Source of the DNA: Salegentibacter lacus
GTDB taxonomy: Bacteria; Bacteroidota; Bacteroidia; Flavobacteriales; Flavobacteriaceae
Assembly: GCF_020164555.1 (NCBI RefSeq)
Contig: NZ_JAIQZB010000004.1
Coordinates: 1-64,000 of the forward strand
DNA: 64,000 nt
Direction: 5' to 3'
A program made the position numbers and the translations under genes. The notes below the pieces were generated by a model. It searched no databases and had not been told where the DNA came from. It was given only the letters and a program-made list of their open reading frames with translations. Positions within the stretch are counted from its first letter, which is position 1, and each line of letters starts with the position of its first letter. This document shows, in pieces, positions 1 to 46,113 of the stretch.

Positions 1-205
1 GAAGTATATCATACAGGATTATCCAATAAACACCGGTTGTTTCCATAGCAACAGTATCTACATTATTTTCCAGTAAGTAGGATGCTGCAGCTTCCAAATC
101 CTCCGTAAAGGTGTCGAAACTTTTCACCTCTTTACCTTCCAATCCAACAAAAATTTTGCGGGCACCTATATCAATACCCGCCGCATGTGTTCTAATTTTT
201 TTCAT
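1..205 (-). CDS. IS110 family transposase, N-terminal fragment
   Basis: The reading frame starts at the ATG at 203-205 and is open to the window edge, giving 68 residues. It begins MKKIRTHAAGIDIGARKIFV, with the acidic residue of the DEDD catalytic fold in GIDIG (D12). Further on comes the conserved METTGVYW motif carrying the second acidic residue. These two motifs in this order are typical of the RuvC-like domain of IS110/IS1111 transposases (DEDD recombinases). The C-terminal Tnp_20 domain with the catalytic serine is outside the window, so completeness cannot be judged. The missing part is cut by the window, not by a visible frameshift. Confidence 0.9.
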   Translation of the reverse strand, partial: MKKIRTHAAGIDIGARKIFVGLEGKEVKSFDTFTEDLEAAASYLLENNVDTVAMETTGVYWIILYDIL

Positions 206-363
206 GGCGAATAAATTTTAAAAACCACAGTTGGAAAATCTTTCAGCTTGCAAGACTACCATTCGGGCATCAAGTAAATTGAGCACCAGCATCGCTAACA
301 ATATTTTCCAAAACCATACTCAGGAACAGGTATGAAAACACTATACTTATATCGGTTAACTCG
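206..363 (-). ncRNA. Candidate IS110 bridge RNA in the element's 5' non-coding end
   Basis: IS110-group elements carry a structured guide (bridge) RNA between their left end and the transposase start. Here that interval is about 225 bases, close to the size known for the family. A sigma70-like promoter at 370-397 would start an RNA near 363. Within it I see nested complementarity. GTGGTT at 363-368 pairs with AACCAC at 223-228. ATTTTCCAA at 303-311 pairs with TTGGAAAAT at 231-239 (9 of 9). A small hairpin joins 315-319 (CATAC) and 330-334 (GTATG). No open reading frame fills the region. The ends of the RNA and the target and donor loops are not established; this is an inference from position, promoter and pairing. 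Confidence 0.5.
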
Positions 364-369
364 TGGTTC

Positions 370-397
370 ATTATATTTACCAATAAAATTACGTCAA
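370..397 (-). promoter_or_regulatory. Sigma70-like promoter for the IS110 leader and transposase
   Basis: Read on the minus strand, TTGACG (392-397) is followed after 16 bases by TATAAT (370-375). This is close to the classical bacterial -35/-10 pair and unlike the TAnnTTTG type used by the host genes around it. That difference fits a broad-host mobile element. The predicted start is near 363. Confidence 0.55.
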
Positions 398-432
398 AAT
401 CCTACGCTAGGTAATTTTTTTTATCACAGGTC

Positions 433-443
433 TCAGGATGACG
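433..443. repeat. Remnant of the dispersed two-hairpin repeat at the IS110 edge (copy E)
   Basis: TCAGGATGACG here is identical to the right end of the full repeat copies at 39226-39308 and 45959-46113. As at the asnS locus (39300-39357), it is followed within about 20 bases by a CCTCACA-type terminator. The other half of the repeat is missing on this side, as expected if the IS110 element inserted into it. Confidence 0.5.
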
Positions 444-454
444 ATAAAACAAAA

Positions 455-488
455 AGGCCTCACAGGTTTTCGAAAACCTGTGAGGCCT
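455..488 (-). terminator. 34-base perfect palindrome, terminator of the M13 peptidase gene
   Basis: The 34 bases are an exact palindrome centred on TTTTCGAAAA, with arms AGGCCTCACAGG and CCTGTGAGGCCT. On the minus strand the hairpin is followed by TTTTTGTTTT, a good intrinsic terminator 33 bases after the peptidase stop. The core CCTCACA...TGTGAGG recurs at the asnS terminator (39322-39357). Confidence 0.85.
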
Positions 489-520
489 AATATTTTTATC
501 AAACTTCCGAAGAAACTTAA

Positions 521-2590
521 TTACCAGATCTTAACTCGATCTTCTGGTGCTACATACATTTTATCTCCTTCTTCAATATCAAAAGCGCTGTAAAAAGCAT
601 CAATATTTTGAAGCGGTACATAAGCTCTGTACATTCCAGGAGAATGAGGATCTGTCTTGATCTTGTTTTTCAAGGCTTCATCACGCATTTTGGTTCTCCA
701 AACTGTTGCCCATGATAGGAAGAAACGTTGCTCTGGGGTGTAACCATCTATCTTTCCTGGATCTCCGTTTTCTTCTAAGTGAATTTGTAAGCCATCATAG
801 GCAGCATTAACTCCGCCAAGATCTCCAATATTTTCACCAAGAGTAAACTGTCCGTTTATATAGACGCTATCCAATACTTCAATGTCGCTATATTGATCTG
901 CAAGGTCTTTTCCAAGTGTTTCAAATTGTTTTAAGTCTTCGTCTGTCCACCAGTTATTCAGGTTTCCTTCAGCATCAAAACGAGAACCGCTATCGTCAAA
1001 TCCGTGAGAGATTTCGTGCCCAATTACAGCTCCAATTCCACCGTAATTTACAGCAGCATCTGCTTTGTAATCGTAAAATGGGGGCTGAAGAATAGCCGCA
1101 GGAAATACAATTTCATTGTAGCTTGGGTTGTAATAAGCATTTACCGTTTGTGGGGGCATAAACCATTCGCTCTTATCTACCGGTTGACCAAGATCTGCCA
1201 TATTATCGGCAACTCTCCACTTGCTGGAGTTCATCATATTTTGGAAAAAAGAACCACCGTTTTCAACATTTACAATTTCAAGGTCGCTATAATCTTTCCA
1301 TTCATCTGGATAACCAACTTTAATAGTTGTAGTTCCCAGTTTTTCCTTAGCTTTTTTCTTGGTCTCTTCGCCCATCCAGCTTAGGTTATCTATCCTGTTT
1401 TCGTAAGCTTTAATCAGGTTAGAAATCATTTCCTGGGCTTTTTCTTTAGCTTCAGCCGGGAAATGTTCGTCTACATAAAGTTTACCTAAAGCTTCTCCAA
1501 GAGTTCCGTTTACAGTTTGTAGAGCGCGCTCGTCACGAGGTCGTTGCTCCTGTGCTCCTCTTAGGGTTTTGTTATAGAATTCCCAGTTTGCAGTTTCAAT
1601 TTCTGTAGAAAGTGCTCCTGCTGCATCATTAAAGATGCTCCACTTTAAATAGTCTTTCCAGTCTTCAACAGAATTTTTAGCAATTACATCCTGAAGGGAT
1701 TTCATATATTCAGGCTGAGAAACGATTATGGTATCTAAATTTTTTGCTCCAATTTCTTCAAAATAAGTATTCCACTCAAAAGCTGGAACCATATTTTGAA
1801 GCTCGGCTACTGTTTTTGGATTGTAAGTTTTACGGGCATCACGGCGTTCTACTTTGTCCAGTCTTGGTTCTGCAAGGCTGGTTTCAAAAGCTAAAATTCG
1901 TTCTGCTGCATCAGTTGCTTCTTCTTCAGAATAGTCTATATATTGAAGCATTCTGGTAATATGCTCCTTATATTTCTCCCTTTTTTCTTTGGAATCTGAA
2001 TCATCTGCAACATAGTAGTCACGATCTGGTAGCCCTAATCCTGCAGGATAAAGGTAAGCAGCGTTCATATTACTGTTTTTAGCATCTGCACGAACCCCGA
2101 AAGAGAAAAATCCGGCACCGCCGTATTGTTGCATTTCGGTAAGGAATTCCTGTAGGTCTTCTTTGTTTTCAATAGCATCTACTTTTGCCAAATATGGTTT
2201 TACCGGTTCCACGCCTTTTTCATTTCGGGCTACGGTATCCATAATTGTATTATAAAGGTAAACCGCTTTAGCTTGATCACTCGAAGGGTCTAAGCTATCG
2301 TTAGCAGAAGCGCCTTCTAAAATAGCCATGGCATCTTTATCGGTACGCTCACGAAGTTCCATAAAACTTCCCCAGGTAGTCTGGTCTGAAGGGATTTCGG
2401 TAGAATCTACCCATTTCCCGTTTACATATCTAAAGAAATCATTCTGAGGTGCAACGGTAGTATCCATATACGCAAGATTAATACCGTGTACTTCTTCATT
2501 TTCAGCTTGGTCTTTGTCGTTATCCTGACAGCTGCTCAAGGTGGCAGCTCCCAAAACTGACAAGAACATCACTTTGGTTATTTTTTTCAT
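521..2590 (-). CDS. M13 family metallopeptidase (neprilysin/PepO-like), lipoprotein
   Basis: A zinc endopeptidase of the neprilysin family that cleaves peptides, probably at the cell envelope. The 689-residue length is normal for the family. The N-terminus is a lipoprotein signal ending in the lipobox LSSC (Cys21). The M13 N-terminal domain fills most of the protein. The catalytic motif HEISH is at about 525-529 and the third zinc ligand lies in GENIGD at about 585-590. The substrate-binding NAYY motif precedes the active site. The C-terminus ends in the usual aromatic residue (VKIW). The gene stands alone: it has its own strong terminator on the 3' side, and 136 bases separate it from the next gene. 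The specific substrate is unknown. Confidence 0.95.
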   Translation of the reverse strand: MKKITKVMFLSVLGAATLSSCQDNDKDQAENEEVHGINLAYMDTTVAPQNDFFRYVNGKWVDSTEIPSDQTTWGSFMELRERTDKDAMAILEGASANDSLDPSSDQAKAVYLYNTIMDTVARNEKGVEPVKPYLAKVDAIENKEDLQEFLTEMQQYGGAGFFSFGVRADAKNSNMNAAYLYPAGLGLPDRDYYVADDSDSKEKREKYKEHITRMLQYIDYSEEEATDAAERILAFETSLAEPRLDKVERRDARKTYNPKTVAELQNMVPAFEWNTYFEEIGAKNLDTIIVSQPEYMKSLQDVIAKNSVEDWKDYLKWSIFNDAAGALSTEIETANWEFYNKTLRGAQEQRPRDERALQTVNGTLGEALGKLYVDEHFPAEAKEKAQEMISNLIKAYENRIDNLSWMGEETKKKAKEKLGTTTIKVGYPDEWKDYSDLEIVNVENGGSFFQNMMNSSKWRVADNMADLGQPVDKSEWFMPPQTVNAYYNPSYNEIVFPAAILQPPFYDYKADAAVNYGGIGAVIGHEISHGFDDSGSRFDAEGNLNNWWTDEDLKQFETLGKDLADQYSDIEVLDSVYINGQFTLGENIGDLGGVNAAYDGLQIHLEENGDPGKIDGYTPEQRFFLSWATVWRTKMRDEALKNKIKTDPHSPGMYRAYVPLQNIDAFYSAFDIEEGDKMYVAPEDRVKIW

Positions 2591-2726
2591 GTGTGGTTTA
2601 AATTATTATGAATTTTGGCGCTAAAGTACTAAAAAGTAGCATACTTAGCCCAAGATTATTTAAGGCTGAAAATTTATTGATTTTTAAAGTGAGGATGGGC
2701 TTCCCTGTACTATTTCTCTTGAAGGT

Positions 2727-3209
2727 TTAATCAATTTCATTGATTAATTGTTTATCGAATTTTTCCTTCAATTTAGTTACTTCTTCAACATTCTCATTTG
2801 GAACGGTAATGGAAAGCACATAATGCGCAATTTTCCAACCTTCATTGGTTTTTTGAAGTACACCTGAGCCACGGCAGATTCCCATTTGCGTATTTAGCAA
2901 CTCATCAAACCAGGCAATTTTGCTGTTTTCTTCGGTATAAATATTTCGTTCTAGAGTTGTGAAACTCCAGGCATTTCCACGATCAAAATATGGTTTTGAA
3001 AATTCCCGAAAATCATCGTTTTGCCAGTTTTCGGTAGCATCGGTACCTATAAAAACTCCGTCTTTGGTCATTAAACTGAAATACGTATCGAAATCGGCTT
3101 CGCCAGCGGCTTTGTGCCATTGAGTAAGTACAGCGTCAATATTAGATTTTTCCTGAGCCGATAGACTTATGCTGAAAATTAAAAAAAGTAGTGTTGTAAA
3201 TTTTTTCAT
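2727..3209 (-). CDS. Exported SnoaL/DUF4440-like (NTF2-fold) protein
   Basis: A 160-residue protein with a signal peptide of about 18 residues (cleavage near LSAQ). The mature part has the pattern of the NTF2-fold family SnoaL/DUF4440: an N-terminal helix with AVLTQWHKAAGEADFDTYF, then GVFIGTDATENW and strands ending in GWKIAHYVLSI. The fold holds small ligands or acts as a docking domain. No catalytic set can be named from the sequence, so the function is unknown. The gap of 73 bases to the lipoprotein gene upstream on the same strand leaves co-transcription possible. Confidence 0.75.
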   Translation of the reverse strand: MKKFTTLLFLIFSISLSAQEKSNIDAVLTQWHKAAGEADFDTYFSLMTKDGVFIGTDATENWQNDDFREFSKPYFDRGNAWSFTTLERNIYTEENSKIAWFDELLNTQMGICRGSGVLQKTNEGWKIAHYVLSITVPNENVEEVTKLKEKFDKQLINEID

Positions 3210-3282
3210 TTTGAATGAATTTTAATTCAAGATACCGATTTTTACTCAGCCGGAAAGATTTGAAACAGACGAAAGAACTAAT

Positions 3283-3840
3283 CTATTCTACCGAAATTGA
3301 ATCGACAGAAATAGTATCTCTTTCGGCTTTAAATTCATCGAGTTCATCTTCGAAATCTTCCAGCGTTTTTAGGAAAAGTTCATTAAGCTGAATCTTAAAA
3401 TTATTGAATTCATCGGGAATTTCGCCAGCAACTTCAGTAATGGCATCGGCATCTAATTGCCGGCGATGAGAAAGTTGTTCTAAGACCTTTGCTTTGGTAG
3501 CCAAAACATTGGCACGGGCTCTTACCGCATTAGAGCTTAAAGAATCTGGAATACTGGTAGAAAGAGATTCCATAACCTGAGAAATTGGCCTGGAGCTTTC
3601 TATAGTTTGCTTCAGATTATAGTTTTTTAATTGGTCAACTTCATTTTGCGCCGCGATGTAAGCTAGCCACTGTATCGCGTGTTTTCTGGCTTCAGGAAGC
3701 AAAACCACTTCAATGTTAGTGGTCTTTATGGGTTGGTTTAATGCAGTAGAGTCAATCTTAGTACTGGCAATATTTTGATTTTCTGACTTTTCGCCACAAG
3801 ACCAGAGAAAAATAAATGATATAAAAATCAGTTTTTTCAT
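3283..3840 (-). CDS. Small lipoprotein of unknown function
   Basis: A 185-residue protein beginning MKKLIFISFIFLWSCG, a short lipoprotein signal with Cys15, so probably anchored to a membrane in the periplasm. The mature part is mainly predicted helix and acidic towards the C-terminus, with a long helical segment around residues 100-170. I recognise no family. It lies upstream of the SnoaL-like gene on the same strand. The divergent threonine dehydrogenase gene begins 154 bases away. Confidence 0.7.
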   Translation of the reverse strand: MKKLIFISFIFLWSCGEKSENQNIASTKIDSTALNQPIKTTNIEVVLLPEARKHAIQWLAYIAAQNEVDQLKNYNLKQTIESSRPISQVMESLSTSIPDSLSSNAVRARANVLATKAKVLEQLSHRRQLDADAITEVAGEIPDEFNNFKIQLNELFLKTLEDFEDELDEFKAERDTISVDSISVE

Positions 3841-3945
3841 ATAAATACAAAGTTAATCTAAAATATTTCAGATTTCATAAATTCATGGCGTGAAAGCCAA
3901 AGACATAAAAGATTTCTAATAAAAGTAAAGGTTTCGGCTACTTCA

Positions 3946-3978
3946 TTGCGAAAACCTCTATATAAATAAATATATTTG
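3946..3978 (+). promoter_or_regulatory. Bacteroidota-type promoter of the threonine dehydrogenase gene
   Basis: TATATTTG at 3971-3978 matches the -7 element TAnnTTTG. A TTG at 3946-3948 lies 22 bases upstream in the place of the -33 element. The start codon is 16 bases further on. Confidence 0.5.
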
Positions 3979-3994
3979 CGGAAAAATCAATAAG

Positions 3995-4954
3995 ATGGCC
4001 GGGAAAATTTTAATTATTGGAGCTTGCGGGCAAATTGGAACCGAGTTAACGCTGAAATTACGCGATCTCTACGGAAACGATCGGGTAGTGGCTAGTGATA
4101 TTAGGGAAGGGAGCGAGGAGCTTATGGAATCTGGTCCTTTTGAAATTGCCGATGCTACTGATGCCGCTCTAATAGAATCTATTATTGATAAGTACAGCAT
4201 TTCTGAAGTTTACCTTATGGCCGCTATGTTAAGCGCTACTGCAGAAAAAGTCCCGATGAAAGCCTGGAACCTTAATATGGATTCCCTTTTTCATATCCTG
4301 AATTTTGCAAAGGATAAAAAGATTGAAAAAGTATTTTGGCCGTCGAGTATTGCAGTTTTTGGGCCTACCACGCCTAAAAATGATACTCCGCAAACTACAA
4401 TAATGGAGCCTTCTACGGTTTATGGAATTAGTAAACAAACCGGCGAAAGATGGTGCGAATATTATCACGATAAATACGGCGTAGACGTTAGAAGTTTGCG
4501 TTATCCTGGCATTATAAGTTATAAAACCCTTCCCGGCGGCGGAACTACCGATTATGCGATAGAGATTTTTCACGAAGCCCTTAAAAAGAAAAACTATACT
4601 TCATTTCTGGACGAAAATACCGGCCTTCCTATGATGTATATGGACGATGCGATTAAAGCTACCGTAGATATTATGGAAGCACCTTCGGAGAAAATAAAAG
4701 TACGTTCTTCTTATAATCTTTCGGCTTTAAGTTTTACGCCAAAAATTCTTGCTGAAGCTATTCAAAAGGAAATCCCTGAGTTTAAAATTGCTTATGACCC
4801 CGATTTTAGACAAAAAATTGCCGATTCCTGGCCTTCGAGCATAGATGACTCTGAAGCGAGAAAGGACTGGCAGTGGAAACACGATTTCGACCTGCAAAGC
4901 CTGGTTAAGGAAATGCTGGCAGGAGTTTCAGAGCAATTAAATACCGCGAAGTAA
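3995..4954 (+). CDS. L-threonine 3-dehydrogenase, short-chain (SDR) type
   Basis: A 319-residue NAD-dependent dehydrogenase of the extended SDR/epimerase fold. The NAD-binding glycine motif GACGQIG is at residues 9-15. The catalytic Tyr-Lys pair lies in STVYGISKQTGERW at about 145-158. Overall sequence and length match the SDR-type threonine dehydrogenases known from Flavobacterium and Cytophaga. These oxidise L-threonine to 2-amino-3-ketobutyrate, which is then cleaved to glycine and acetyl-CoA. The partner ligase gene (kbl) is not adjacent. The gene has its own promoter and ends 16 bases from the convergent PepSY gene. Assignment to threonine rather than a nucleotide sugar rests on overall resemblance. 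Confidence 0.85.
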   Translation: MAGKILIIGACGQIGTELTLKLRDLYGNDRVVASDIREGSEELMESGPFEIADATDAALIESIIDKYSISEVYLMAAMLSATAEKVPMKAWNLNMDSLFHILNFAKDKKIEKVFWPSSIAVFGPTTPKNDTPQTTIMEPSTVYGISKQTGERWCEYYHDKYGVDVRSLRYPGIISYKTLPGGGTTDYAIEIFHEALKKKNYTSFLDENTGLPMMYMDDAIKATVDIMEAPSEKIKVRSSYNLSALSFTPKILAEAIQKEIPEFKIAYDPDFRQKIADSWPSSIDDSEARKDWQWKHDFDLQSLVKEMLAGVSEQLNTAK

Positions 4955-39225: not shown

Positions 39226-39309
39226 TTCGTCAAGCTGAACTTGTTTCAGCTTCTAACATGATGCAAATTTTTAATCAAATTAGATCCTGAAATAAATTCA
39301 GGATGACGT
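39226..39309. repeat. Dispersed two-hairpin repeat, copy B
   Basis: Core without the outer arms of copy A. CGTC (39228-39231) and GACG (39305-39308) close two hairpins, GCTGAA/TTCAGC and TCCTGAA/TTCAGGA, separated by TTCTAACATG and an AT-rich stretch. It lies 3' of asnS, just beyond its terminator. Confidence 0.8.
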
Positions 39310-45958: not shown

Positions 45959-46113
45959 AAGAGACTGTTTGAAGAGTCTTGATTTCGTCAAGCCGAGTTT
46001 ATTTCAGCTTCTAACATGTTTAAATTCTCAACAAGTTATAGCTCCGAACAAATTTCGGAGTGAGCTCTGAAACAAGTTCAGGATGACGATTTCACAACTT
46101 CTCAAACAGCCTG
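45959..46113. repeat. Dispersed two-hairpin repeat, copy C, with outer arms and an extra hairpin
   Basis: Outer arms GACTGTTTGAAGAG (from 45963) and CTTCTCAAACAGCCTG (46098-46113) pair. The core starts CGTCAAGCCGAG and ends TCAGGATGACG. It contains an additional hairpin CTCCGAA/TTCGGAG (46042-46060) not present in copies A and B. It lies 28 bases beyond the frr stop. Confidence 0.8.

Follow-up and report, generated by a model that had tools for sequence, protein, structure and literature searches.

A probable IS110-family bridge RNA from Flavobacteriaceae and the natural variation of its target guide

Results

The left end of an IS110-family element in Salegentibacter lacus

The window analyzed here is a 64,000-nucleotide stretch of Salegentibacter lacus DNA at the start of contig C63, in a genome (G000) assembled as 4.05 Mb in 128 contigs. 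It opens with the first 68 codons of an IS110-family transposase gene on the minus strand (positions 2-205), the remainder being cut off by the contig start. Over these 68 residues, the truncated protein is 99% identical to the intact 435-residue transposase of a Salinimicrobium marinum element (L023). The adjoining 227 nt (206-432, minus strand) are the left non-coding end (LE) of the element, and comparison of copies fixed both of its boundaries. The inner boundary is the transposase ATG at 205. At the outer boundary, the flanks diverge around CTGA in the six copies of S. lacus, in seven copies of a congener (G408), and in relatives. The L023 element is 1,551 bp long, with an LE of 226 nt and a right end that extends 17 nt beyond the stop codon. 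The aligned copies and these dimensions place the LE of the window at 432-206, precisely the interval that an earlier note had proposed from the sequence.

Six left ends and seven right ends of the element were found in the S. lacus genome. All six left ends sit at contig ends, where assembly would be expected to break on a multicopy element. Relatives in complete or nearly complete form are present in S. marinum (L023) and Gillisia hiemivivida (L024) and at L027, L080, L082, L084-L087, L078, and L079. The left junction reads CTGA/GACC (a slash marks the junction); other copies have TCGA or TTGA before the junction and GATT or GCCT after it. The right junction reads AATGGTA/A[C/T]TT, or continues with GTG in elements guided by GUUCGA (see below). 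The two junctions, CTGA/GACC and GGTA/A[C/T]TT, share only an A, and a CT core dinucleotide is absent. An 8-bp subterminal inverted repeat, TTGACGTA (390-397, minus strand), has its partner TACGTCAA at the right end and is placed asymmetrically, beginning at LE base 36. Between the element and the end of a minus-strand gene (521-2590) lies a strong terminator-like hairpin with a T-tract (455-488).

The L023 protein matched PF01548 and PF02371, both above the cut-off, as an IS110-family protein does. Residues D12, E55, D92, D95, S326, and G327, which we take to be the catalytic D-E-D-D and S-G residues, were invariant in all ten aligned transposases. A second, distant IS110-family transposase of S. 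lacus (L029, C74:220498-221712) is 38% identical to the L023 protein; it was the only one detected by Pfam-profile searches of this genome, which missed the truncated copy. Viral contigs searched for the transposase and plasmids searched with the left end gave no match, and a PDB sequence search gave no real match. The upstream regions of three plasmid relatives (Aeromonas, Citrobacter, and Pontibacter) held nothing interpretable.

A conserved two-domain fold

RNAalifold applied to six left ends produced a two-domain fold, to which the outer stem proposed in the earlier note was added before pairs were counted on 13 left ends. The shared fold is paired in 84.6% of 577 cells, compared with 35-48% when the partner was slid by one to three columns. 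In a test that favors the fold, since six of the 13 sequences and the added stem had supplied its structure, changes on both sides occurred in 15 of 46 pairs, against a shuffle mean of 7.3 with none of 500 shuffles reaching 15. Another of the five measures, the number of further pair types, was 34 against a shuffle mean of 32.2 and was reached by 136 of 500 shuffles. Folded alone, positions 368-206 gave a minimum free energy z of -1.35, with 17 of 200 shuffles as good. Because this single-sequence value is only mildly low, comparison across left ends carries the case for the fold.

All segments of the fold are read on the minus strand. The outer stem (helix 1) joins AACCAC (363-368) to GTGGTT (223-228); two of its six pairs changed on both sides and 74.4% of its cells are paired. 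The best-supported part is helix 2, the target-binding stem-loop (357-312), whose 5' and 3' arms are AACCGATAT (349-357) and GTATGGTT (312-319); six of its 16 pairs are double-changed, 91.8% of its cells are paired, and the distant left end from genome G406 keeps 10 of the 16. In the donor domain, helix 3 joins TTGGAAAAT (303-311) to ATTTTCCAA (231-239) with 85.6% of cells paired, and the hairpin of helix 6 joins CTGGTGCTCAA (279-289) to TTGATGCCC (265-273) with 98.2%. Helices 4 (57.8%) and 5 (61.5%) are the weak parts. The three nested complementary pairs listed in the earlier note are exact (368-363 with 228-223, 311-303 with 239-231, and CATAC at 334-330 with GTATG at 319-315), and the first two are stems of the shared fold. 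The third is probably not a working structure, because the 319-312 arm pairs with 357-349 in the shared fold.

A covariance model built from six left ends (R1) found copies beyond its training set in genomes G424 and G425, with 3 of 16 genomes matched, and weaker copies in G406 and G212. In a third genus, only the training genome was matched (1 of 12). Rfam gave no relevant match in positions 1-4000 of the window.

The left target guide covaries with the DNA beside the element

The segment UCCUGA (320-325, minus strand) belongs to the first stem-loop, where it forms part of the 3' side of the internal loop. It matches the DNA to the left of the insertion, CGTCATCCTGA (433-443, minus strand), which is the left arm of a CGTC-tagged REP. 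In relatives this segment reads UGCUGA, GCCUGA, GGCUGA, GUUCGA, or UUCUGA, and the left flank of each insertion varies accordingly. For 28 insertions of 12 element types, guide and left flank agree at 149 of 168 positions. When guides were swapped among types, the mean was 107.3 and none of 20,000 shuffles reached 149 (P about 5e-5), a permutation that excluded remnants L039/L073 and L076 and that is generous because the 12 types are related. With one insertion per type, 64 of 72 positions agree, against 46.8 with swapped guides.

Because the register had been picked after the motif was seen, we also scanned the alignment positions in 3,839 comparisons on 21 insertions, the seven G408 rows being dropped for their incomplete left ends. 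The CCTGA segment compared with left-target positions -5 to -1 gave 103 of 105 matches (wobble allowed) and a z of 3.6, the highest listed when the best eight comparisons of each class were taken at more than 60% matches. On the same diagonal lay two of the rows that followed (z 3.0), and an unrelated segment had a z of 3.3 with 64 of 105 matches. Thus z alone is not decisive, and it is the near-perfect match count that decides. As in a bridge RNA, the left target guide is complementary to its target and covaries with it.

The same relation is seen within single genomes. The six left ends of S. lacus lie in unique flanks, each preceded by CGTCA[T/A]CCTGA. With the guide UCC, all six sites carry C at the key base, which is found in 49 of the 100 REPs listed as background (P = 0.014). 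With the guide UGC, six of seven sites in G408 carry G, against 16 of 50 listed REPs (P = 0.0055). Right arms imply C in seven of seven cases in S. lacus and G in three of four in G408; these counts are not independent of the left ones, since they most probably come from the same copies. Genome G424 holds both kinds, with one UCCUGA copy at TCCTGA and five GUUCGA copies at CTTCGA, CCTCGA, GATCGA, GTTCGA, and CTTCGA. These results bear out the proposal of the earlier note that the guide specificity of this copy could be read and compared with its real insertion site: UCCUGA fits the target flank and varies with it.

Could the left end instead be a 5' untranslated leader that regulates the transposase mRNA, with the REP specificity residing in the protein? 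It is structured and stands directly before the start codon, and small RNAs of ISPpu9 have been reported to regulate in such a way (PMC8450116). We regard this as very unlikely. Across the 119-133 nt that were compared, the left ends of S. lacus and G408 share 95% identity, yet the REP arms that they occupy differ in step with one RNA base. Likewise, the L023 and L080 proteins are 96% identical, whereas their guides and targets differ (UGC and TGC versus UCC and TCC).

Insertion into CGTC-tagged REPs

The left and right flanks together form a repetitive palindrome, for example CGCCATGCTGA/ACTTGTTTCAGCATCT in L023. The exact REP pattern GTCANNCTGAAYYTRTTTCAG occurs 112 times in S. lacus and 136 times in G408, and never read backwards. 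The seven right ends of S. lacus are followed by REP right halves, with ATTTA in six and ACTTG in one. Three intact CGTC-tagged REPs of near-identical pattern lie in the window itself (39228-39308 and 46067-46088), two of them as an inverted pair.

The element stands at one orthologous locus in two species (L005 at the end of C49 in S. lacus and L050 at the end of C134 in G408), where the two copies occupy different REP arms, each suited to the local guide. At this locus, some congeners have an uninterrupted REP, for example CGTCAAGCTGAACTTGTTTCAGCTTCT in L090, which equals the left arm of G408 and not that of S. lacus. Other congeners have no REP there; for a few of the 15 loci, the anchor was either missed or wrongly placed. 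CGTC-tagged REPs have been described in carriers that include G. forsetii, and that study found no dedicated transposase for them (PMC3733652). They are the same target family as here. Unlike in that study, they appear here as insertion targets, which does not explain how the REPs themselves spread.

A guide-like CTGAG might also be the leftover of a captured REP, in which case common descent or gene conversion, and not pairing, would explain its resemblance to the target. The LE does begin with 50 nt that are imperfectly palindromic and REP-like, and one satellite (L040 in G403, see below) has a right end that reads as an intact REP, as if replaced by gene conversion. We find this explanation hardly credible, because the guide lies in a covarying stem-loop 107 nt from the junction, its neighbors ACCUGU and GAGNAUG are nearly fixed while mainly the target-matching bases vary, and a second segment of the RNA, AAUGGUA, matches the other DNA partner.

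Candidates for the donor guides and the right target guide

The segment AAUGGUA (257-263, minus strand), the probable left donor guide, has the same sequence as the final 7 nt of the right end, which finishes in CAATGGTA. Comparison confirmed this identity in L023, L024, L027, L080, and the seven right ends of S. lacus. The segment is nearly invariant: the GUUCGA elements of G424 have CAUGGUA for AATGGTA, and L078 has UUUGGUA for ATTGGTA. Since it hardly varies, its support is identity rather than covariation. On the 5' arm of helix 6, GGUGCUC (287-281) is the putative right donor guide; it would pair discontiguously, with one bulge, with the start of the LE, GAGACC. Donor pairing in IS621 is likewise discontiguous (PMC11208160).

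For the right target, UAAGU (345-349, minus strand) is a plausible candidate guide. It pairs at five of five positions, with one wobble, with the ATTTA and ACTTG found after the shared A (A/ATTTA and A/ACTTG). The G424 class has UACAC for the target GTGTT. On the 16 right targets of its own class, UAAGU pairs at a mean of 4.69 of 5 positions, compared with 2.8 on targets of the UACAC class. A permutation over eight types gave 44 of 65 against 39.1 and was not significant (P = 0.16), the guide at this position misfits the G406 copies (1 of 5 for L078 and 0 of 5 for L079), and the position scan singled out no right guide. Orientation provides a further argument. GTCA precedes the matched six bases in 26 of 28 left targets, L023 and L083 having one-base variants, although the other arm of the palindrome also contains the match of the left guide; reversed insertions would give right targets that pair at only 2-3 of 5 positions with the candidate. 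AAAUA near 305, 3' of the left guide as in the order of IS621, is able to pair with part of the right target; it was set aside as lying in a stem and away from the cut.

The earlier note had proposed to look for two internal loops that match the target flank and the element ends, using a model built from related left ends. Such matches were found for the left target and left donor guides, and the two right-side segments stand as candidates.

A promoter-like pair in the left end

The earlier note also gave the RNA its own sigma70-like promoter. The pair is present, with TTGACG at 397-392 and TATAAT at 375-370 (370-397, minus strand; spacing 16 nt), and matches the consensus at 11 of 12 positions. 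Scanning of positions 180-520 at a threshold of at least 9 of 12 found one site against 1.1 in shuffles, so by sequence alone the promoter is not above chance. The arrangement of TTGACG, 16 nt, and a second hexamer matching at 5 of 6 or better is kept in 8 of 13 left ends, several of which are close relatives; the G424 B-type rows differ in spacer sequence. The second hexamer is TATAAT in the window, L080, and G408, TATAGT in L023 and L024, TATAAG in L082 and L085, and TATAAC in L083. L025 has ATGACG and TATAAG spaced by 15 nt, and the left ends of L026, L027, L078, and L081 hold nothing comparable. The -35 hexamer falls within the subterminal inverted repeat, and its conservation could serve end recognition instead of a promoter. 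Bacteroidota usually use other promoter sequences. A role as the RNA's own promoter is plausible and unproven.

Satellites with the ends of the element

The outer 50 nt of the LE match many further places in the genus. These are satellites of about 300-410 bp that have the same left and right ends and are inserted in REPs; in related genomes overall, such elements with the same ends and without a transposase range from about 155 to 540 bp. One lies in S. lacus (L056, C39:86414-86732) and many lie in G408, G403, G400, G406, and G410. A 306-bp satellite query matched in 10 of 15 genomes of the genus, with at least 38 matches in G408 and one in S. lacus (C39); some matches contain the body only, without ends. 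In Gillisia G410, the right-end pattern (up to two mismatches) matched 22 times, one match being a full element, and of 12 other loci ten were readable as elements of about 155-175 or 385-430 bp. Most satellites that were read retain the subterminal inverted repeat of the left end as TGACGT or longer. We set aside an origin of the satellites by internal deletion of the element, since they have different bodies and the longest open frame in the 16 measured has 60-114 codons, short of a transposase. The shared ends of these non-autonomous elements are most simply explained by movement in trans.

Two satellites of G425 (L081 and L083; 532 and 538 bp, without transposase) carry bridge-RNA sequence. 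The target stem-loop is retained with 15 of 16 pairs, together with its guide and the left donor guide, and the outer stem has been lost (0 and 1 of 6 pairs), which makes it uncertain that their RNA works. A 372-bp satellite of G424 (L148), ending at 2075 of the reverse complement, sits in a CACTTCGA/GTGTT repeat, the type in which the GUUCGA-guided element of that genome is also found. Satellites L115 (G407) and L109 (G399) occupy another kind of repeat, CATTGGGA or CATTGCGA, which hints that an element with another guide was once present. Ten satellites of G408 have C (six), G (three), or T (one) at the base that is G in the resident guide of this genome. Satellite sites therefore do not simply follow the resident guide, and older or other guides must have acted.

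The larger satellites of two genera share a structured body with 33 predicted pairs. In 20 sequences, 641 of 656 cells are paired and 16 pairs show double changes; structure and count come from the same alignment, without a shuffle control. Examples are L048, L125, and L145, and in some genomes the body occurs without the IS ends. Eight loci gave no Rfam match at E up to 0.5, one 315-base query gave none among plasmids, and a 21-base core pattern gave none among viral contigs. The body, RNA-like by its covarying pairs, may be a passenger RNA gene.

Discussion

We conclude that positions 432-206 (minus strand) very probably (about 0.92) encode the bridge RNA, or seekRNA, of an IS110-family element from Flavobacteriaceae that is about 1.55 kb long, as the earlier note had proposed. 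This reading is supported by the conserved fold, by UCCUGA, which covaries with the target flank, and by AAUGGUA, which equals the right end. We infer that the RNA is transcribed and bound by the recombinase, that it has right-side guides as well, and that the element forms a circle. While the first domain would read the target, the second would read the element, with AAUGGUA pairing with the right end and, putatively, GGUGCUC pairing where the left end begins. Next, the DEDD recombinase would join the circle (...GGTA/GACC...) into CTGA/A within the REP, the single A being shared.

The group to which the element belongs is less simple. Its layout is that of the IS110 group, with a long left end, a short right end, and the RNA upstream of the transposase gene. 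The CT core of IS621 in that group is absent, and the guide order of the group (left target guide 5' of right target guide) is not seen here, the right guide position being provisional. In both loops, the left (bottom-strand) guides are on the 3' side, which is the IS1111-type order. Among the IS1111 seekRNAs that were tested, the guide for the top strand comes before that for the bottom strand, and the order is reversed in the IS110 member ISEc21 (PMC11187229). This order and the 8-bp subterminal inverted repeat (range 7-17 bp in the IS1111 group) would suit a classical IS1111-group element whose bridge RNA has moved to the left end (PMC11187229). We consider that unlikely, because the transposase has 435 residues, within the 395-455 of the subgroup with IS110 rather than the 330-350 of IS1111 (PMC11187229), and because the right end is only 17 nt, where IS1111 elements have a long non-coding region downstream of the transposase. 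Mixed traits of this kind are not unheard of, since the seekRNA study names exceptions in RNA position such as ISMtsp17 (PMC11187229).

A broader reading is tentative, and we hold it at somewhat less than even odds. The element may head a natural RNA-guided family of satellites that spreads on one recombinase through CGTC-tagged REPs. Some satellites would have only its ends and others, in addition, a target domain of a bridge RNA, and many carry a conserved structured RNA. Satellites with a guide of their own could redirect the recombinase, and the RNA would be IS110-like in place and IS1111-like in guide order. The reading is made less likely by the G425 satellites, which carry only part of the bridge RNA. 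A search of the literature, mostly outside subscription journals, on non-autonomous or MITE-like IS110 or IS1111 elements listed no paper recognized as describing such satellites. Of two candidates, QMITE2 is a target of IS1111 and is not moved by it (PMC5896051), and SMN1 of Sulfolobus is a non-autonomous element (PMC3718332).

Programmable recombination is founded on bridge RNAs, and the two studies cited here experimented with elements of E. coli and other Proteobacteria (PMC11208160, PMC11187229). The new aspects here are the hybrid layout, clear natural retargeting, and the satellites. Retargeting among near-identical elements, with two guides in G424, allows the guide rules to be read directly. 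The guide order, if the candidate right guide is correct, would break the pairing of RNA position with guide order reported for the IS110 and IS1111 groups. The CGTC-tagged REPs, said to lack a dedicated transposase (PMC3733652), gain a class of elements that recognize them. The satellites suggest that about 48 nt at the left and about 20 nt at the right are sufficient ends, and they would be the natural counterpart of the laboratory mini-IS. Artificial mini-elements of ISEc11 and ISEc21, in which IS ends surround foreign DNA, were moved with recombinase and RNA supplied in trans, the state proposed here for the satellites (PMC11187229). In contrast to those constructs, the satellites are natural, multicopy, and about 155-540 bp long, two of them have a partial bridge RNA, and their movement is deduced from their ends.

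Compared with the IS621 bridge RNA of the IS110 group (PMC11208160), the RNA described here is alike in lying in the left end upstream of a DEDD/Ser recombinase, in having two structured domains with guides for the target and the element end, and in having REPs as targets. It differs in that the left guides are on the 3' side of the loops rather than the 5' side, the junctions share a single A instead of a CT core, and the recombinase has 435 residues. In IS621, the promoter is formed across the circle junction, whereas the promoter-like pair here, the only one examined, lies inside the left end. With the ISEc11, ISPa11, and ISKpn4 seekRNAs of the IS1111 group, the element shares the subterminal inverted repeat and, if the right guide is correct, the guide order; it differs from them in an RNA that lies upstream and not downstream of the transposase gene, in its long left and short right ends, and in its longer transposase (PMC11187229).
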